Assembly (NCBI GenBank): GCA_026770595.1
Contig: MU633763.1
Span: 1 to 24,725 of the forward strand
Origin: Ochromonadaceae sp. CCMP2298
Taxonomy: Eukaryota; Sar; Synurophyceae; Ochromonadales; Ochromonadaceae
Length of the DNA: 24,725 nucleotides
Direction of reading: 5' to 3'
Shown: positions 1,878 to 23,565 of the stretch, piece by piece
Position numbering within the stretch: the first letter of the stretch is position 1
How the letters are laid out: each line of letters begins with the position of its first letter
Notes under the pieces: generated by a model
The model's database searches: none
The model's input: the letters and a program-made list of their open reading frames with translations, nothing else
What the model was told of the DNA's origin: nothing
Made by a program: the position numbers and the translations under genes

Positions 1878-1932
1878 TCTGATTTTGTGATGTGATGTGT
1901 CTATCAGAAGTAAGTCGAAGCTCTGGCGTGCG

Positions 1933-2201
1933 ATGCTTGCGGTGGCCCTTCTTCTGCTGGGGCGCTGTACGTGCTCGCGGGTCTGGTCGGTGCCCAGAGC
2001 CCTGACAGCACCGACACAGATGCAGACAGTTCCTGTTGCAGCATGGGCACCCAGCAGGGACCTGCAAGGACACAGGGGTAGATGTAGTGTCCTATGGCAG
2101 GGAACTCAAAGCACTGGGGCAGAGAGGGAAGTTGTCATGGGGACGGAAGCTGCAGAGACTCAACAGTCGTCCTCCATGCGCGAGCGGCGACGGGTCAAGC
2201 G

Positions 2202-11029: not shown

Positions 11030-14000
11030 ATGGAGGAAACGAAGTCCGGCGCGTCCGGCGGCTTGCGCCAGAAATTCGGCCCTGCTGCGAAGAAGGACTT
11101 CAAAGACCTCGCGGTGGGTGCCTCCACCCGTCATGTACCCGAGATCGTGCATGTCGAGCCAAAGGTGTTCGAGCCCTACAAATGGACTGCTGGGCATGTT
11201 CCCCGCAGGATCGAGGTGGAGAGGAAGAAGCGGCAGTTTGCGGTGATCGATTTGACGCAGGCGCTGAGGGAGAACGGCGTGATCGACGAGATCCGCCGCG
11301 CGATAACCGCGCCAGACGTCTCATCAGTGACCTGCATGCCCCTGTCCTTTTTCGACAACACTGAGTTCCATTCTAGACCCACCTCTTCGTGGCACGAGTT
11401 CGTGCGCGAGTCGGGCTCGCTCGATGGCGGCATCCCTGCTCGCGCGATGTACACAGTGATGGTTAACGACAAGGACGTAGTCGTCGTATGGCGCGCCTGC
11501 AAGGTAATCGCGGCCCACGAGGACACGAACCAGTTCACAGTCAACTACATGGCGGATAAGCACTACATGGCGACATGCCCCAACACAAAAAGCAGCACCA
11601 GCAACGCGGGCACCATTGCCGCCCTATCCGTCTGCTTCGACGCGGAGGACCCGGAGCTCTATGTGCGCAGATTGCTCGGCGCTGCCTCGCTGCGCAGAGA
11701 GGTGTCGGACACAATCGCGCTCAACCTGTACGTGGACTGCATGCCGGTGGACAACCTGAAGCCCCTGGACTCCGAACAGGTCAACCGGATTCTCGAGAAC
11801 GCGATTAATATGAATAAGCTGCGCATGAGCAGCTCTCTGGACACCAGCAGCCTTCTGCAGCAGTACAACCTCAACCACATGCGAACTATGAACAAGCTCA
11901 TCTTCGTCAAGCTCATGCAGGAGCAGCAGAAGGCTGTCGAGATGGTGCGGAGCGTCAGCACAGACGCCACGATCTTCCAAGCCCCCTCGGACGTCTTCCC
12001 CCCCCGCCACAACGTATTTGTCAACACAGACCTGCCCTTCGACGAGCGGCAATTGACCTTCAAGTTCTCCTCTCTGTGGAACAAGATGGAGGCGCTGTAC
12101 ATCATCCACCAGATGCAGGTGGAGAACGTGACCCTGGAGAGGGCGGTTTTCTTCGCAGTGCCGGAGAAGTCCCAGCGCCTGGAGGAGTTCGCCAGCAACC
12201 AGGCCGTTACCGGCAACGCCCTCACCGCCCTCGTGAAGGAGAACTGGGTCAACGCGATTACCTCCTCGGTGCGCCAGAACCTCAAGGAGGTCAAGAAGGG
12301 CTGGTTCAACATCGACGAATCCAACCTGGAGGTGTACAAGTTCTCCAAGCTGCGGCGCTTCATGTACCGCATAAACTTCAAGATGGAAGACACTATGAGA
12401 GACCTTATGTACCGAATGGTGTCCGAGTTCTGCTCGATGATTAAGTCCTTCTGTCCGGAGAGCATCAAGATAAGGGCGAACGACTCGGTGGAGATCGTGG
12501 GGGGGCGGTTCCCCATGTTCATCGCGGACTTGAAGTTCATCAACGCCACGCCCACCAAGGCTGCCGAGTTCGTCTACTCGACCACCAAGGAGGCCCTGCT
12601 GGAGACCATCATGCACCCCTTCGACGCGGTGTTTAAGTCCCTCAAGGGCATGGTGAAGGTGGAGCGCAGGGTGATGAAGAGGCTATTCTGGGCCTACGAG
12701 CCGCTCATGACGGTGCCCCACGCGGGCGAGGAGTGGGCCGTGGAGCTGCACAAAGACCTCGTCGCCACGGTGGAGAAGGCCTTAACTCCCATGCAGGAGT
12801 ACATTGGGTTCTTGATGGACTACAAGACGTTGATCGAGATAGACGTGGAGGAGTACACGGCCAACGCGGAGGCCAAGTTCTTCCCAGGCGAGGTGATGAA
12901 CATGGTGGACCTGGCCGCCCTCGCTCGCCAGCACGCCCACGACTCCGAGTCAATCTCCTACGACCTGCCCAGCTCCGTCTCCATCGGCCTGGTGCTGATC
13001 GACTGCAAGAGCGTGAAGACCATGCTGGCCGCCAAGCACAAGGTCATTTCGGCCAGGCTCTTCCAGCTGCTGCAGCGCCGCGCCAGGGACTACGCCGACA
13101 CGGTGCAGGTGGAGTTCAGAGAAATGTTCGACGGGGTGGCCGTGCCTCCTGACAATATCGAGAAGCTCACGGACATGAGGGACTTTCTGTCCACGCTGCC
13201 CAGCCGCATCGACCAGCTGGGGGACAGGATTGCCAAGAACGAGACGCACTTCGCGCTGATGGAGGAGGCGAAGTGGCAGATCCCCCTGGACGAGATGGAC
13301 GTGCGCTGGGACGTGTACCACTGGCCCTGCAAGCTGCTGGGAGAGATCGCCAAGCAGGAGAAGAACATGCGCGTGCAGGAGTTCAACTTCAAGAGGGGCA
13401 TGGAGGAGGAGCAGCAGGAGTTCAACTCGGACCTGTCCAACCTGCAGTCCGACGTGGCCAAGCTCAAGGACCTCACGAAGCTCGGGGACGCCGCGAAGAA
13501 CGCCGAGACCGTGCGGCGCATCAAGCTGGCCCTCGCGCAGGCCGACGAGAAGTCGAAGCTGTTCAACTCCCGAGAGAGCCTGTTCAACGCGAGCCCCACG
13601 GAGTACGGGGAGCTGTCCGAGCTGGCCAAGACCTTCGAGCCCTTCTTCGACCTGTGGGACTCCTGCGAGAAGTGGCTGTCCAACAAAGAAACCTGGACGA
13701 ACGGCTCTTTCATGGCCCTGGACGCGGAGGTGGTCGAGAACAACGTGAACACTCTGCTGCGCAACCTGAACAAGTCCGCCAAGACCTTCGAGCGCAACAA
13801 CCTCTCCCAGTGCAACGTCATCGCAGCCCAGGTGCGCGACGAGCTGGACCTCTTCCGCCCCCGCGTTCCGATCATCGTCTCTCTGCGCAATGCGGGCATG
13901 CGCGAGCGCCACTGGGACGAGCTGGCGACCAAGGTGGGCGTGACCTTCCCGGAGGACAAGGGGGAGCTGACGCTGCACAAGCTGGTGGATATGGGCATGG

Positions 14001-17000
14001 TCAAGGCCATGGCGGATGTGGAGAAGGTGGCGGAGAAGGCGGGCAAGGAGTTCGGCATCGAGACGGCGTTGGACAAGATGGCCAGCGCGTGGGAGAGTAT
14101 GATGCTGGTGGTGGAGGAGTACAGGGACACGGGTACGGCGATCCTCAAGGGCGTGGACGACTACATGGGCCTGCTGGACGAGCACATCACCATGACCCAG
14201 GCGATGGCGTTCAGCGCCTTCAAGGGCCCCTTCGAGGCGCGCATCGACTCGTGGAACACCTCCCTGCAGGTGATCTCAGAGGTCGTGGACGAGTGGGTGC
14301 AGCTGCAGCGCAACTGGCTCTACCTCCAGCCCATCTTCGACTCAGCCGATATCAACAAGCAGCTTCCGCAGGAGGGCAAGCGCTTCACAACGGTGGACAA
14401 ATACTGGCGTGCCACGATGCAGAGCGCGATGAAGGGCGTGCTCGCTGTGAAGTTCTGCGACGACGTGAGGCTCTTGGAGCGCTTCAAGGAGGGAAACAAG
14501 CTGCTGGAGATGGTGCAGAAAGGGTTAGCGGACTACCTGGAGACCAAGCGCGCAGGCTTCTCGCGCTTCTACTTCCTCTCCAACGACGAGCTGCTGGAGA
14601 TATTGTCCGAGACCAAGGACCCCCTGCGGGTGCAGCCGCATCTGCGCAAGTGCTTCGAGGGCATCAAGGAGGTCGACTTCCAGCCCGACTTGACCATCGT
14701 GGGCATGACCTCGCCCGAGCGCGAGTACGTGCCCTTCGTGAAGCCCGTAGACCCCAAGAACAAGAACATAGAGGCGTGGATGGTGGAGGTCAAGGATGCG
14801 ATGATCGGCGGCGTGCGCGACAACATGTACCACGCGATTCTGGACTACACCGAGCGGCCGCGCACGGACTGGATGCAGAAGTGGGCGGCGCAGTGCGTGC
14901 TCAACGGCTCGCAGGCGCACTGGACGCGCGAGGTGGAGGAGGCGCTGAAGGAGAAGGGCAACGACGGTGCGTGGGAGTACTACGCACAGCTGGTGAGGCA
15001 GCTGGAGGACATGGTGATCCTCATCAGAGGCAAGATCTCCAAGGCTGCGCGCGTGACGGTGGGCGCCCTGGCGGTGGTGGACGTGCATGCCCGAGACGTG
15101 CAGAAGAAGATGGCGGAGGCGGGCGTGGCCAAGGTAACGGACTTCGACTGGATATCGCAGATGCGCTACTACTGGGAGGGGGATATCGAGCAGGGGCTGG
15201 GGGACCTGGCGGTCATTATGGTCTCCTCGAAGCGCTGGTACGGCAACGAGTACCTGGGCAACTCCTTCCGCCTGGTGATCACGCCCCTCACGGACAAGTG
15301 CTACCTCACGCTAATGGGGGCGCTGCAGATGATCCTGGGGGGCGCGCCGGCGGGTCCGGCTGGTACTGGCAAGACTGAGACTACCAAGGACCTGGCCAAG
15401 GTAGGTATTAAACCCATCCATCTATGCTACAAACACTTATTAAACCCCATCTATACTACAAACGCGTATTAAACCCAGGCGCTGGCCAAGCAGTGCGTGG
15501 TGTTCAACTGCTCAGACGGGCTGGACTACATGGCGATGGGCAAATTCTTCAAGGTATCCATATTAAACCCACATATCTACACCACATATCCATATTAAAC
15601 CCACATATCTACACCACACTACCTATTAAACCCCACTCGAAGGGTCTGGCCTCCTCGGGGGCCTGGGCGTGCTTCGACGAGTTCAACCGCATCAACATCG
15701 AGGTGCTCAGCGTCATCGCGCAGCAGGTGATCCAGCTGCAGGGCACCGTGCAGAGGGGGGAGAAGCGCACGGTCTTCGAAGGCACGGACATCCTCGTCAA
15801 CCCCGAGTTCGCCGTCTACATCACCATGAACCCCGGGTACGCGGGCCGCGCAGAGCTTCCTGACAACCTGGAGGCCCTCTTCCGACCCGTGGCGATGATG
15901 GTTCCTGACTACGGGCTGATCGGCGAGATCATGCTGTTCTCCTACGGGTACATGGCGAACCGCAAATGCTCCCAGAAGATGGTGGCGACCTTCCGCCTGT
16001 GCTCGGAGCAGCTCTCCTCGCAGGACCACTACGACTACGGCATGCGCGCGGTGAAGACCGTCATCACCGCCGCGGGCAACCTGAAGCGCGCCAGCCCCGA
16101 GGAGAACGAGGAGGCGCTGCTGATGCGCGCCCTGCAGGACGTGAACGTGCCCAAGTTCCTCGCGCACGACCTGCCCCTCTTCGCGGGCATCCTGAGCGAC
16201 CTGTTCCCGGGCGTGCTGCGGCCCGCGTTCGACTACGGGCCCCTGGTGGTGAGTCTGAAGGAGGCCACGCTGGAGAAGAACCTGCAGCCGGTGGACATAT
16301 TCCTGCGCAAGAACATAGAGCTCTACGAGATGATCTGCGTGCGCCACGGGCTGATGGTGGTGGGCCCCACGGGGGGCGGGAAGTCGTGCAATATTCGAGT
16401 GCTGGCGGCTGCCCTGTCCAAGCTACACGCCAAGGGGATCGCGGGGGAGCGGTACGAGAAGACCAAGATCCACCACCTGAATCCGAAGTCCATCAGCATG
16501 GGGCAGCTCTACGGCAAGTTCGACGAGAACACGCACGAGTGGCAGGACGGCATTCTGTGCGTGATCATCCGCATGTGCATCAAGGACGACACGCCGGTGC
16601 TGAAGTGGATGCTCTTCGACGGGCCGGTGGATGCCATCTGGATCGAGAACATGAACACAGTCCTGGACGACAACAAGAAGCTCTGCCTCACCTCTGGCGA
16701 GATCATCTCCCTCAGCGAGCCCATGACGATGATGTTCGAGCCCGAGGACCTGGCGGTGGCCTCGCCCGCCACCGTGTCGCGCTGCGGCATGATCTACATG
16801 GAGCCCACCTCTCTCGGCTACGACGTGCTGATGCAGAGCTGGCTCGCCACCACGCCGCCCACCCTGGGCGCCCGCGCGCGCGCCAAGCTGATGCAGCTCT
16901 TCGACGCCTACGTACCGGGCGTGCTCCCCTACCTGCGCCGCAACTTCGCCGAGCCCCTGCCCACCACGAACAACTGCCTCGTGGAGGCGCTGCTGAACCT

Positions 17001-20000
17001 GCTTGACACCTTCCTGGCAGACTTTCACGAGGTGGACGACGGGCGGGAGAAGAAGACCGCCGAGCAGATCGACGCCTTCCAGAGGCAGCTCGAGCCCGTC
17101 TTTATCTTCTGCCTTATTTGGTCTCTCTGCTGCACGGTCGGGCGCGCATCCCGCAAGGCCTTCAACGACTTCCTGCGCCTGGAGATGGCGGCCAACGGGG
17201 TGACCCAGGCGCCCCCCGTGTCTGGCTCTGTGTACGACTTCAAGTACGACGTGGATGCGAAGGCGTGGGTCGAGTGGAACAGCTCGGTCTCCCCGTACCA
17301 GTACGACCCAAAGCTGTCCTTCGCCGAGCTGATCATCCCCACCAAGGACTCCATCTGCTACACCTTCCTGCTCGACATCCTCGTGCAGAACAAGAAGCAC
17401 GTCATGATGACCGGGCCCACCGGAACCGGAAAGACTGTAAACATCCAAGGCCATCTGCAGAACGGCCTCCCCGACAAGTACGTCCCCATCCCCATATCCT
17501 TCTCCGCGCAGACGTCGGCCAACCAGACGCAGGACCTGATCGACTCGAAGACGGAGAAGCGCCGCAAGGGCGTGTACGGGCCCTCGGCGGGCAAGGAGTT
17601 CATCATCTTCGTGGACGACGTCAATATGCCCATGAAGGAGGAGTACGGCGCGCAGCCGCCCATCGAGATCCTGCGCCAGTGGTTCGACAACATGGGCTGG
17701 TATGACCGCAAGGCGCTGGAGTTCCGGCGGATCATCGATGTGATATTCGTGGTGGCCTGCGGGCCCCCCGGGGGCGGGCGCAACGACGTGACGGCCCGCT
17801 TCTACCGGCACTTCAACATCATCAACTACGTAGACATGTCTGACGACTCGCTCAGACTCATCTTCACCACCATCCTGACCAACTTCCTGGGGCCTTTCGA
17901 GCAGGAGGTGCAGCTCCACGGCGCCGGTCTGGTCAAAGCCACCATCCAGCTGTACAACACCATCCTGGAGGAACTGCGCCCCACGCCCACCAAGCCCCAC
18001 TACACGTTCAACATGCGAGACATCTCCAAGACGTTCCAGGGCATGCTGATGGTGGACCGCCGCAAGGTCACCACTGGCGTGCAGCTGGGCCGCCTGTGGA
18101 TGCACGAGAACACGCGCGTCTTCGGCGACCGCCTCATCAGCGACGAGGACAAGGGCTGGCTGAAACGCGTGCTGGAGGAGAAGATGGAGGCCAACACGGC
18201 GCTGCAGGGGGCCGAGCTGTGGGCCACGCGCGGGGAGGTGTTCTGCTCGGACTTCATGGTGCCCGGAGCGGACCCCAGGGTGTACGAGGAGATCGACGTG
18301 GCGGAGCTGCAGCCCATGATAGAAGACTACCTGGCCGAGTACAACTCCGAGAGCAAGCAGCCCATGCATCTTGTGATGTTCGGGGACGCGCTGCAGCACG
18401 TTGTGAAGATCGCCCGCGTGCTGAGGCAGCCCTCGGGGCACGCGCTGCTGCTGGGCGTGGGCGGGTCGGGCAGGCAGTCCCTCACCCGCCTGGCCACGTT
18501 CATCGCGGGCTACCAGATCTACCAGATCGAGATCGCCAAGGGCTACGGCATGAACGAGTGGCGCGAGAACGTGAAGGAGTGCCTGCTGGTGGCCGGGGTG
18601 AAGAACAGGCCCATCGTGTTTCTGTTCAACGACATCCAGATCATAAACGAGACCATGCTCGAGGACATCAACGGCGTACTCAACTCGGGCGACGTGCCCA
18701 ACCTCTACAACGCAGAGGACCTGGAGGCCATCACGTCTGCCTGCAAGCCCGAGTGCGTCAAGAAGCGCCTGCCGCCCACCAAGCTGAACATATTCTCCCA
18801 GTACCTGCTGCGGGTCAAGGCCAACATCCACGTAGTGCTGTGCATGTCCCCGCTCGGCGACGCCTTCCGCACGCGCCTGCGCAAGTTCCCCTCCCTGGTG
18901 AACTGCTGCACCATCGACTGGTTCCAAGAGTGGCCCGACGAGGCGCTGCAGTCCGTGGCCGCGCGCTTCCTGGCCTCCTCGAACCTGGGACTGTCCCCCG
19001 AGATGGAGCAGAGCCTGATCACCTTCTTCCAGTTCATCCACCAGAGCATCGAGAAGAAGTCAATCGAGTTCCTGGTCAAGATGCGCCGCCACTTCTACGT
19101 GACGCCCACCTCGTACCTGGAGCTGCTCTCCACGTACAACAAGGTGCTCACGGAGAAGCGCAGGGAGGTGGGCACGCTGCGGGACCGGCTGACCATCGGT
19201 GTGGACAAGCTGGTGTTCACGGAGATCCAGGTGAACGAGCTGAAGGCCACCCTGATCGAGATGGAGCCCAAGCTCATCCAGACGCAGGCAGAGGTGGACG
19301 TGATGATCGTGCAGATCAGCAAGGACAAGCTGTCTGCGGCGGAGACCAAGGCGCTGGTCGCGGTGGAGGAGGCGTCCGCGTCCAAGAAGGCGACGGACAC
19401 CAAGGCGATCGCGGACGACGCGCAGCGCGATCTGGACGAGGCGCTGCCCGCCCTGGCGGAGGCCGTGCAGTGCCTCAAGGACCTGAAAAAGGCCGACATC
19501 GACGAGGTCAAGTCGCTCGGCCGGCCGCCCGTGAACGTAGTACGTACTCTGACCGCCTGCTGCATCATGTTCGACATAAAGCCCAACATGGTGCCGGACC
19601 CCGACAACCCCGGCAAGAAGATCAAGGACTACTTCAAGGCCTCCCAGCAGCACCTGCTCTCCAATGCCAACAAGCTGCTCGACGACATGTCGAACTACGA
19701 CAAAGACAACATCCCGCACCACATCATCACGCAGATCGAGCCCTTCTACAACGACCCCAGCTTCACCCCCGAGATCGTGGAGAAGGCCTCCAAGGCCTGC
19801 AAGGCCATGTGCATGTGGGCCAGGGCGATGTACAAGTACCACCAGGTGACCCTTGTCGTGGAGCCGAAGAAGAAGCAGCTCGCAGAGGCGCAGGAGTCCC
19901 TGGACGAGACGATGATCATCCTCAAGCGGGCGCAGAGCACGCTCAAGGGCGCGGAGGACCAGATCGCCGGCCTGGAGGCGTCCTTCAAAGAGGCCAACGA

Positions 20001-23000
20001 CAAGAAGGAGCAGCTGGTGTTCGACGTGGAGCAGTGCCGCGCGCGCCTGGAGCGCGCCGTGTCGCTGATGGGCGGCCTGGGCGGCGAGCGCACGCGCTGG
20101 ACTAAGACCTGCGCAGACCTGACCGCCGCGTTCGACAACCTCGTGGGCGACGCGCTCGTATCTGCGGGAGCCATCGCCTACCTCGGCGTGTTCACGCCCA
20201 GCTTCCGCACGGACGTGATCGCCCAGTGGGCCGAGAAGCTGGACGAGCTCAAGATCCCGCACGCAGCCAACGCCAACCTGCGCACCACCCTGGCCGACCC
20301 CGTGGCCATCCGCAGCTGGACCATCTGCGGCCTGCCGCAGGACTCGCACAGCGTGGAGAACGGCATCATCATGTCCAAGGGCCGCCGCTACCCCCTGCTG
20401 ATCGACCCGCAGGGGCAGGCCAACCGCTACATCAAGAACATGGGCAAGGACTCGTCTATGTGCCCCAACGACATCGACGTGATCAAGCTCAGCGATAAGA
20501 ACTTCCTGCGCACGCTGGAGAACGGCGTGCGCTTTGGCCGCTGGGTGCTGCTGGAGAATATCGGGGAGAACCTCGACGCCGCCCTGGAGCCCCTCCTGCT
20601 GCAGCAGAAGTTCAAGCAGGGGGGCACCGAGATGATAAAGATCGGGGACTCCACCATCCCCTGGAACGACTCGTTCCGCTTCTACATGACCACGAAGCTC
20701 ACCAACCCGCACTACGCGCCAGAGGTGTGCGTGAAGGTCAGCCTGATCAACTTCGCGATCACGTTTGTGGGCCTGGAGGACCAGCTGCTGGGCGTGGTGG
20801 TGGTGGAGGAGATGCCGGAGATGGAGGAGAAGAAGAACAGCCTCGTCATCTCCAACGCCAGAATGCGGAAGGAGCTGCAGGACCTCGAGGACCAGATCCT
20901 CTTCATGCTGTCCAACTCCACAGGCAATATCCTGGACGACCACAAGCTAATCGAGACCCTGGCCACGTCCAAGGTGAAGAGTCAGGAGATTTCGGCCAAG
21001 GTGCAGGAGGCCGAGATCACCGAAAAGCAGATCGACGAGTCCAGGAACATGTACCGGCCTGTGGCCTTCCGAGGCTCCATTCTGTACTTCTGCATCGCGG
21101 ACCTGGGCACGATCGACCCCATGTACCAGTACTCTTTGCAGTGGTTCAGAGGCCTCTTCGTGCAGGCCATCCGACAGGCCCCCGCCTCGGACGACATCTC
21201 CGTGCGCATCACCGCCCTCAATGACTTCTTTACCTACTACGTCTACACCAACATCTGCCGCTCGCTGTTCGAGCGCCACAAGCTGCTCTTCTCCTTCCTG
21301 CTCACGATCCGCATCCTGCAGGGCAGCGACAAGATAGACGCGGCGGAGTGGACTTTCCTCATCTCGGGCAAGTGCATGGGCAGCGCAGATGCGCCCAACC
21401 CCTCCCCCGACTGGATCGACAACCGCATGTGGAGCGAGGTCACGGCGCTGTCCTCCCTGCCCAGCTGCGAGGGCCTCGCTGCCTCGGTGGCTGGAGACAT
21501 CGTGCAGTGGAAGGGCATGTACGACTCGCTCGATCCGCAGACCGCCACCCTGCCCGGACGGTGGCACGGTGCGCTGAATAGCTTCCAGAAGCTGTGCATC
21601 CTGCGCTGCTGGCGGGCTGACAAGATACCGTCGGGCATCTTGCACTACTGCATCGAGCAGCTGGGCACCAAGTTCGTGGAGCCCCCGCCCTTCGACCTGC
21701 TCTCCTGCTTCAAGGACAGCAACGTTCTGTCCCCGCTCATCTTCGTGCTCTCGAAGGGCTCGGACCCCACCAAGGCCTTCAACGAGTTCGCCGTGAAGCA
21801 GAAGATGGACCGCAAAGTGCGCATGCTCAGCCTGGGGCAGGGGCAGGGGCCCAAGGCGGTGAAGATGATCGAAGAGGCCACGCAGAAGGGCAACTGGGTG
21901 CTGCTGCAGAACTGCCACTTGTTCATCAGCTGGCTGCAGGAGCTCGAGCGCATATGCGAAAACCTCTCCGGCGACTCGGTGCACAAGGATTTCCGCCTCT
22001 GGCTGACCTCCATGCCTTGCAAGGAGTTCCCCTCGAGCGTCCTGCAGAGCTCGGTGAAGATGACCAACGAGCCCCCCAAGGGCCTGAAGGCCAACCTGCG
22101 CAACGCCTACTACAAGCTCAACAACGAGACGCTCAACGTGACCAACAAGCCCAACAATTACAAAAAGCTGCTCTTCGGCCTGTCCTTCTTCCACGCAGTC
22201 GTGCAGGAAAGGCGCCTTTTCGGACCCATGGGGTGGAACATTCCGTACGAATTCAACGACACGGATCTGGACATCTCCAAGGGGCAGCTGGGGCTGTTCC
22301 TGGACCAGTACGACGAAACGCCCTGGGAGGTGCTCAACTTCCTGACGTCGTATATCAACTACGGGGGGCGCGTGACGGACTACATCGACCTGCGCACGAT
22401 CGACGTGATCATGAAGAGCTTCTACAACCCCGGCCTGCTCACCTCCGAGTACCGGTTCGACAAGGAGGGCGTCTTCTACTCCATAGACTTCGACGAGGAA
22501 GACCCCCACGCCTCCTACCTCGCATACATCGACAGCCTGCCGCTGGTCGCGTCCCCGGGTGTGTTCGGCATGCACGAGAACGCTCTGATCGCATCTGCGA
22601 ACGCCGAGACCTTCTCCATGTTCGACACCTGCCTCTCTCTGGAGGGCACGGGTGGCGGGGGCGGCTCCAGTGCGGGTGCCAGGGAGAAGCTGATCGAGTT
22701 CACGGCGAAGACTGTGGAGGAGGCCATCCGCAAGAAGGGGCAGTTCGACATCGAGGGCATCTCGCTCGTCTACCCTGTGGTCTACGGCGAGTCCATGAAC
22801 ACGGTCTTGCTGCAGGAGTGCATCCGCTACAACAAGCTGATCGACGCGATGGAGCGCACGCTGCCGGAGCTGCTCAAGGCGCTCAAGGGGCTGGTGGTGA
22901 TGTCGAACGAGCTCGAGGCCATCGCGAACGCCATCGCGATCAACCAGGTGCCCGGCGCGTGGGCCGGCGTGGCCTACCCCAGCATGAAGCCCCTCTCCGC

Positions 23001-23565
23001 ATGGCAGGCAGACCTCATGGAGAGGCTTAAGTTCATACAGGACTGGATCGAGCTGGGCGTGCCGGCGGTATTCTGGATCTCGGGCTTCTACTTCCCGCAG
23101 GCCTTCCTCACCGGCTCGCTGCAGAACTACGCCCGAAAGTACAAGTTGCCCATCGATACGGTCGAGTTCAACTTCCTGCTGAAGAAGGAGGACTGGACGA
23201 TGTTCCCCACCAAGCCCGAGGACGGGGTGTACATCCGCGGGCTGTTCCTGGAGGGGGCGCGGTGGGACGCCGCCGAAGGGTCTATCTCCGACTCGCTGCC
23301 CAAGCAGCTCTACACAGAGCTGCCTGTGATCCACCTCGACCCGCAGCAGCACCGCAAAGAGGTGACCAAGAACATCTACCGCTGCCCCGTGTACAAGATC
23401 CTCTCCCGCAGAGGCACGCTGTCCACCACCGGGCACAGCACGAACTTCATCATGTGGATAGAGGTGCCCTCGTACCGCACGAACATCCTCAACAACGAGG
23501 GCAAGGCGGACCAGGAGGAGTGGATCCGCGCAGGCGTGGCAGCCTTCTCCTCCCTAATGTATTAA
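11030..23565 (+). CDS. DNAH1: axonemal inner-arm dynein heavy chain, DNAH1-like (three exons, complete)
   Basis: The exons are 11030-15400, 15479-15553 and 15643-23565 (TAA), giving about 4122 aa. This is the motor subunit of a single-headed inner dynein arm. The tail and linker fill residues 1 to about 1400 (linker landmark [14 protein letters not shown] near 1179). The AAA ring has P-loops GPAGTGKT (AAA1, 1442-1449), GPTGGGKS (AAA2, 1723-1730), GPTGTGKT (AAA3, 2073-2080) and GVGGSGRQS (AAA4, 2420-2428). AAA1 Walker B is [10 protein letters not shown] coiled-coil stalk flanks the microtubule-binding region (about 2763-2900), followed by AAA5, AAA6 and a C-terminal domain containing [15 protein letters not shown]. 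The AAA2-AAA3 segments ([42 protein letters not shown]) look closest to DNAH1 from memory, and the length fits (human DNAH1 about 4265). The subclass is less certain than the family. A Gly-rich insert (GTGGGGGSS) lies in the C-terminal domain near 22650. Confidence 0.93.
15401..15478 (+). other. dynein intron 1 (78 nt), built of a ~30-nt repeat
   Basis: The donor is AAG|GTAGGT and the acceptor AAACCCAG|G. Splicing is phase 0 and joins TTKDLAK to [17 protein letters not shown], the invariant dynein AAA1 sequence. TATTAAACCC occurs at 15406, 15438 and 15467, so the intron is about 2.5 copies of a 29-32-nt unit that also makes up the next intron. Confidence 0.92.
15406..15633 (+). repeat. six dispersed copies of a TATTAAACCC-containing unit in two neighbouring introns
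   Basis: Copies start at 15406, 15438, 15467, 15561, 15593 and 15624. The 75-nt exon between the two groups (15479-15553) contains no copy. The spacer sequence between copies is similar both within and between the introns. Confidence 0.88.
15554..15642 (+). other. dynein intron 2 (89 nt), built of the same ~30-nt repeat
   Basis: The donor is AAG|GTATCC and the acceptor CCACTCGAAG|G. Splicing is phase 0 and joins MGKFFK to [26 protein letters not shown] occurs at 15561, 15593 and 15624, spaced 31-32 nt, with ACATATCTACACCACA between copies. The donor is weaker than the others in this window. Confidence 0.9.

Follow-up and report, generated by a model that had tools for sequence, protein, structure and literature searches.

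Short tandem arrays of a ~32-nt unit as a probable family of spliceosomal introns in a chrysophyte-like genome

The 24,725-nt stretch of DNA analysed here (the window) contains a dynein gene whose only two introns are tandem arrays of one ~32-nt unit, and the same unit recurs throughout the genome in predicted introns. These introns probably constitute a genome-wide spliceosomal family, each member a short tandem array of the unit with splice information in register. We read the family as introners of a minisatellite type, that is, as gained introns whose unit supplies the splice sites and which expand locally. The origin of new introns is a long-open question, and tandem arrays with splice sites of their own suggest a form of intron birth unlike that of the usual jumping-gene introns. 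If this reading is true, such a family would represent a second, transposase-free route of intron gain and a directly testable system.

The dynein gene lies at positions 11030-23565 of the forward strand and encodes an axonemal dynein heavy chain with Pfam domains from DHC_N2 to Dynein_C. Its spliced frame comprises 4,122 codons without an internal stop and is interrupted only at 15401-15478 and 15554-15642, both within AAA1 and both bounded by GT-AG. The features of the gene are as follows.

11030..15400, + strand, dynein exon 1, codons 1-1457; open frame with Pfam DHC_N2 and the start of AAA_6
15401..15478, + strand, intron 1, 78 nt, phase 0, GTAGGT...CCCAG, three cores; in-frame TAA stop inside
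15406..15415, + strand, core TATTAAACCC, intron 1 copy 1; exact match
15438..15447, + strand, core TATTAAACCC, intron 1 copy 2; exact match
15467..15476, + strand, core TATTAAACCC, intron 1 copy 3; exact match, with the acceptor AG directly after it
15479..15553, + strand, dynein exon 2; 25 codons
15554..15642, + strand, intron 2, 89 nt, phase 0, GTATCC...GAAG, three cores; frame-shifting if retained
15561..15570, + strand, core TATTAAACCC, intron 2 copy 1; exact match
15593..15602, + strand, core TATTAAACCC, intron 2 copy 2; exact match
15624..15633, + strand, core TATTAAACCC, intron 2 copy 3; exact match
15643..23565, + strand, dynein exon 3, 2,640 codons plus stop; rest of AAA1 to Dynein_C

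A preliminary description of this DNA had reported two introns, each with three copies of TATTAAACCC at a spacing of 29-32 nt, as the sole interruptions of the gene. The spliced frame and exact matching confirm this, with core spacings of 32 and 29 nt in intron 1 and of 32 and 31 nt in intron 2. All six exact copies of TATTAAACCC in the window are inside these two introns, and both arrays were also called by Tandem Repeats Finder. The AAG|G contexts that had been described are likewise present at both introns, which are both in phase 0 and which we take to lie between Walker A (GPAGTGKT) and the later FDEFNR motif. The two introns had also been thought to be specially linked to each other. The spacers are 73% identical inside intron 1 and 91% identical inside intron 2, against 55-73% across the two, indicating that they mainly have in common the core, which is itself frequent in the genome. 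Since the values across the two introns (0.55-0.73) are about the means of other introns, the special link is not upheld.

Retention of intron 2 would shift the frame and that of intron 1 would bring in an in-frame stop, so the AAA1 domain can be made only if both are removed. Removal of intron 1 joins KDLAK to ALAKQCVVF, as in the relatives P0121, P0122, P0126 and P0138, and this continuity of the protein suggests that the dynein introns are spliced out. The two introns fold no better than shuffled sequences. Direct repeats at their junctions are 3 and 4 nt long, as for most introns from AG|G alone, and no copying was seen when the dynein arrays were compared by eye with their own exons. A 9-nt exon repeat around intron 1, CTGGCCAAG, was considered as a target-site duplication and rejected, since LAKALAK is a normal protein motif in relatives.

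The assembly holding the window (11.2 Mb, 724 contigs) was searched for the unit. The core TATTAAACCC occurs 764 times, versus 8 times for the reversed word, and a two-core pattern is found in 63 places, versus none for the control; these counts for the genome are slightly too high, since some contig sequence is duplicated: the pairs L013/L015, L064/L065 and L066/L067 have 2.4-3.3 kb in common at 100% identity. No polymorphism was found between the identical contig pairs. The unit is ~32 nt long, the majority reading of 117 aligned units is TGTATTAAACCCCCTCTTTCTATACTATAATA, and the consensus combines a strong core with a weaker CTATACTATAAT part. Extrapolation from 97 exact cores in 60 arrays gives, very roughly, ~470 arrays in the genome. 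The unit is clumped: exact cores occur in one of nine readable unselected 5-kb stretches (L043), and only 2 of the 38 filtered introns from the unselected stretches plus the window contain the core. Matches to the two-core pattern in five IMG/VR contigs, three of which are near-copies of each other, were rejected by inspection as unrelated to the unit. Proteins of this genome match those of chrysophytes (DRC11, 71% over 83% of the protein with Ochromonas danica; the DM10 protein, 65% with Ochromonas sp. CCMP1393), and by these matches the genome appears chrysophyte-like.

Genes were predicted with a home-made finder restricted to GT-AG introns, using a coding model trained on this genome. The finder recovers both dynein introns exactly; its output is not free of false introns and fuses adjacent genes. 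It was applied to the window and 29 loci, ~185 kb in total, with 20 of the 29 loci chosen for containing the core and L038 (all N) left out of the counts. In this sample, the core with at most one mismatch had 246 sense and 45 antisense occurrences in predicted introns and, at the same threshold, none in ~86 kb of predicted exons. The reversed core was found 12 times in predicted introns of the same ~185 kb. Fifteen of the 45 antisense cores belong to the model of L018, where antisense cores outnumber sense cores and which is perhaps on the wrong strand. A hidden Markov model (HMM) of the unit, applied with a threshold of 10 bits, matched 152 times, whereas reversed sequence gave no match; 115 of the matches were intron-sense, 26 intron-antisense and 2 exon-antisense, and 9 fell outside the gene models. 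Both the core and the HMM counts include the overlapping loci L009/L010, L013/L015, L017/L018 and L026/L027. The coding flanks of 60 arrays were on the same strand as the array on both sides in 45 cases, opposite on both sides in 2, and mixed or unscorable in 13. The preliminary description had raised the prospect that the unit occurs in introns across the genome; the search bears this out, the unit being dispersed, located in predicted introns and mostly oriented with the gene.

For the register and similarity sets, an intron was retained if both adjacent exons were 30 nt or longer, and identical introns were removed, giving 267 of 499 introns; for the tandem-repeat set, AG, TG, CG or AA was additionally required before the donor, giving 190. 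When compared with the other predicted introns, a small database, 58 of 78 core introns matched another intron at blastn E<1e-5 with the low-complexity filter on (reversed control, 1/78), and 63 of 78 did so with the filter off (reversed control, 10/78). Introners have been defined operationally as groups of introns in one genome with high similarity at blastn E<1e-5 (PMC12768974), and by that definition the core introns are an introner family. One predicted intron, in L022 (~1911-2076, minus strand, C25), has the unit inverted in its 5' half and in sense in its 3' half, and its ends are near inverted repeats (GTGGGTTTAATA...TATTAAACCCAG).

The unit is in register with the splice sites in part of the core introns. 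The donor follows AG in 62 of the 78 distinct core introns; the earlier proposal that unit introns sit at AAG|G sites is borne out to this extent. Eleven of the 78 start AG|GTATTAAACCC-like. The first core is at most 32 nt from the donor in 37 of the 78, and in 11 of these 37 the unit starts at intron position +1 (p 1.1e-8 for uniform phase), defined as exactly the unit's G before TATT[A/T]AACCC with one mismatch allowed. Toward the other end, the last core is at most 32 nt from the intron end in 48 of the 78 and ends 2-10 nt before it in 28 of these 48 (p 1.2e-5 for uniform phase). Since the donor model may favour GTAT, these register counts could be inflated. A count that is independent of the finder, with duplicated stretches included, found GGTATTAAACCC 20 times in the genome, 17 of them as AGGTATTAAACCC, in which the A before it gives AG|GT. 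Cores at most 7 nt from the donor together with cores at most 15 nt from the acceptor are present in only 9 of the 78 core introns, both dynein introns among them; these nine are arrays over almost their whole length. Use of the core as a branch site was considered and gained no support, since neither TTAAC nor CTAAC was found enriched near the 3' end of other predicted introns.

Removal of core introns can be followed in the product of one gene. The spliced model of the EFHC-like (DM10) gene of L014 is identical to P0241 (100% over 601 aa), and the match crosses ten predicted GT-AG introns, four of which contain one to five cores; beyond residue 601 the model is wrong. P0241 is an intron-free public protein of 667 aa found on four contigs, each at most 2,669 nt long. 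The genomic span is ~3.7 kb, so these contigs are most likely transcripts, the alternative being an intronless copy. At the protein level, then, the core introns of this one gene appear to be precisely removed. In its four core introns, the donor is in register in none, and a core lies 6-7 nt before the acceptor in two. Six spliced predicted proteins were submitted to Pfam, and all contained eukaryote-type domains. In three of the six, the best Pfam stretch crosses core introns: two in fn3, two in Aminotran_1_2 and one in 3Beta_HSD.

Relatives of the dynein were compared as proteins, in a search that favours long reading frames; there were at least 120 matches, with the sequence read for 13 and alignment ends used for the others. 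P0139, the closest among the matches listed, is 75% identical over 1,444 aa and 90% identical within the part used for the search, and in a shifted frame it aligns through the intron 2 site with no gap. Judged from few residues and back-translation, it is apparently continuous at the intron 1 site too. By back-translation it has an intron of its own, which precedes the intron 1 site by ~11 nt and whose translation reveals no unit. Both dynein sites are read through by P0121, P0122, P0126, P0138, P0145 and P0219, and the first site is read through by P0160 and P0167; P0193, P0204, P0225 and P0230 end upstream of the sites and are uninformative. No interruption at the dynein sites was found among the sequence-read relatives (13 of 120) whose frame reaches them. 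Because the search favours long frames, this indicates absence in some relatives, not polarity over a tree. From these protein alignments the dynein introns look gained; what holds of the gain proposed earlier is that, among the proteins compared, they are at least partly absent from the closest relative among the matches listed. Within the genome itself, six other dynein genes (C108, C55, C337, C72, C158 and C154) have the complete AAA1 domain in one open frame. Four more (C48, C610, C317 and C189) have AAA1 introns at other positions, and the core is present in the C48, C610 and C317 loci.

The frames of P0139, P0193, P0204, P0225, P0230 and P0167 break at differing points within ~35 codons of the AAA1 P-loop (window 15340-15560). 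Among the matches listed, the breaks come after PAG, PAGT, TTK-G and CSDG. This is suggestive, and only that, of an intron-gain hot spot at the AAA1 P-loop, in a set that is biased by the length limits of the search and confined to the matches listed.

The spacer identity of units is 0.735 within an intron, 0.616 within the same gene, 0.575 between genes and 0.517 for shuffled units. Only 2 of 5,367 between-gene unit pairs reach a spacer identity of at least 0.9, and one of these represents overlapping stretches of one contig, since L009 and L010 were scored as different genes despite belonging to a single contig. The near absence of near-identical units between genes argues against a current copy-and-paste spread, and the recent gain that had been proposed is not borne out as a fresh burst. 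The family looks like an older one with local tandem amplification and no current copy-and-paste burst. Tandem repeats with a period of at least 10 were found in 93 of 190 filtered introns, mostly from core-selected loci, versus 10-19 in shuffles and 6 of 190 coding pieces. The corresponding counts were 44 of 119 core-free introns (9-13 in shuffles) and, for unselected loci plus the window, 6 of 38 introns (0-2 in shuffles). Other units are thus also found in tandem, and tandem growth inside introns is not limited to the ~32-nt unit.

Introners have been described in Micromonas, Aureococcus and others, with some families carrying both splice sites and some reported to have neither target-site duplications nor terminal inverted repeats (PMC9860276, PMC4815162). 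Signs of DNA transposition were found in most introner families of one large survey (PMC9860276). The introns described here resemble introners in being dispersed, sequence-similar spliceosomal introns in genes. They differ in that the repeated entity is a ~32-nt tandem unit whose copy number varies, and near-identical copies of full length were not observed. As for the transposon marks of known introners, terminal inverted repeats are missing here and junction direct repeats are rare. The two labels of the preliminary description, introner-like and expanding minisatellite, each fit part of the pattern. The survey excluded low-complexity families, on the grounds that expanding microsatellites could look like introners (PMC9860276); the present family falls in that class, and others like it may therefore have escaped notice.

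Two fission-yeast genes are on record with introns that consist of local 24-nt tandem repeats, the repeat itself containing cryptic splice sites (PMC3629103), and intron gain by tandem genomic duplication is on record for a potato RdRp (PMC4974935). The arrays described here are similar in that the intron consists of tandem repeats with splice sites inside. In those cases, however, the repeat resembles a nearby exon of a single gene, whereas here one unit occurs in many genes; with the core absent from ~86 kb of predicted exons, the arrays do not appear to be tandem copies of flanking exon. A considerable proportion of the introns of Amoebophrya fall into repeat families (PMC7789003). Most of those introns are non-canonical and have inverted as well as direct repeats, along with predicted hairpins, whereas the introns here are GT-AG and tandem, and the dynein introns are unstructured. 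Another stramenopile alga, the pelagophyte Pelagomonas calceolata, has an introner-like class of introns with a length peak at ~210 bp (PMC9481584); a tandem unit is not mentioned for these in the available part of that paper. Among the matches listed from the open-licence literature, there was no report of tandem-unit introns in chrysophytes, and the accessible portion of a chrysomonad genome paper (PMC7954800) reports no such introns.

The register of the unit suggests how the introns of such a family might arise. Where an exonic AG immediately precedes it, the GTATT of the unit could act as a 5' splice site, and an incomplete unit that finishes with TATTAAACCC plus 2-10 nt could close the intron at AG. 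With its splice signals in register, an array would be removable at any unit number and could therefore grow or shrink by tandem duplication at almost no cost. A stretch of units inserted at or near AG|G would then create a new intron; being spliceable at once, an array in an exon would survive, and its unit number would vary through local turnover. Candidate routes of insertion are the copying of array DNA in break repair, transposition and reverse splicing. DNA-level insertion or duplication is ranked first, weakly, because of direct repeats of 8-11 nt at the junctions of a few introns and the inverted units in one predicted intron. Tentatively, and at somewhat less than an even chance, we go further and propose that the unit is self-sufficient. 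Carrying both splice sites, two or more units in an exon would be a spliceable intron, whose birth, growth and loss would follow from minisatellite turnover and not from a transposase, and hundreds of the lineage's introns would have been made in this way.

A minisatellite that invaded and expanded within pre-existing introns would make the arrays passengers and their match to splice sites secondary. Such passengers would explain why 69 of the 78 core introns lack cores close to both ends and why tandem repeats of more than this unit are common in filtered introns (93/190; 6/38 in unselected loci plus the window), and P0139's own intron, located ~11 nt before the intron 1 site and showing no unit, is in keeping with them. 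This explanation is nevertheless unlikely, if the most serious competitor, since no interruption at the dynein sites was seen in any sequence-read relative (13 of 120) that reaches them, internal passengers would not be expected to show register with both donor and acceptor, and other dynein genes have their AAA1 introns elsewhere, three such loci with the core. An ordinary DNA-transposon introner of the Micromonas/Aureococcus kind, internally repetitive by chance, would account for dispersed, sequence-similar, mostly gene-oriented introns and for the inverted units of the predicted intron in L022. It would also account for junction direct repeats of at least 8 nt in 6 of 78 introns, against a mean of 0.47 and a maximum of 3 in 500 shuffles. 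Direct repeats of 9-11 nt straddle both junctions at L027:6279-6365, L028:3509-3633 and L020:6291-6517 (minus strand), a target-site-like minority. Target-site duplications are not a constant feature, however: repeats of at least 8 nt are confined to those 6 of 78, their lengths vary, and the dynein introns are not among them. Inverted repeats of at least 10/12 were found at the ends of 0 of 78 introns (null mean, 0.36), the number of units varies, different genes have almost no near-identical units in common and the dynein introns fold no better than shuffles, all of which makes this kind of element improbable.

Reverse splicing, in which excised intron RNA would enter at AG|G and be copied back, so that whole introns spread, agrees with the orientation bias of the arrays and with the 62 of 78 donors that follow AG. 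It predicts copies of whole introns, yet near-identical units between genes are almost absent, and neither the inverted units of L022 nor the junction repeats of at least 8 nt are expected from it. We consider it a shade less probable again than the transposon and weakly favour insertion or duplication at the DNA level over it. Mis-assembly or mixed binning, by which the repeats would not be genuine introns of a single organism, is very improbable. The assembly is a draft with identical duplicated contig stretches, and the unit is clumped on some contigs, as such an artefact would have it. Against this, P0241 shows correct removal, best Pfam stretches cross core introns in three genes, the GC3 of gene models overlaps between unit-bearing and unit-free loci (0.68-0.92 over all), and the unit occurs in many genes with differing spacers.

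Other repeats were observed in the same material. The intron at L014:253-443 looks like a tandem array of a 12-nt unit, TATTGTATACTA, and by eye introns of L077 and L079 resemble arrays of ~28 nt with TTTTAATCCC and of ~16 nt. Elsewhere in the window, a perfect inverted repeat of 35 nt occupies positions 1708-1877, its arms lying at 1708-1742 and 1843-1877; hairpins are nested within it, and it resembles a small foldback element. A further 20-nt hairpin is located at 1554-1602.
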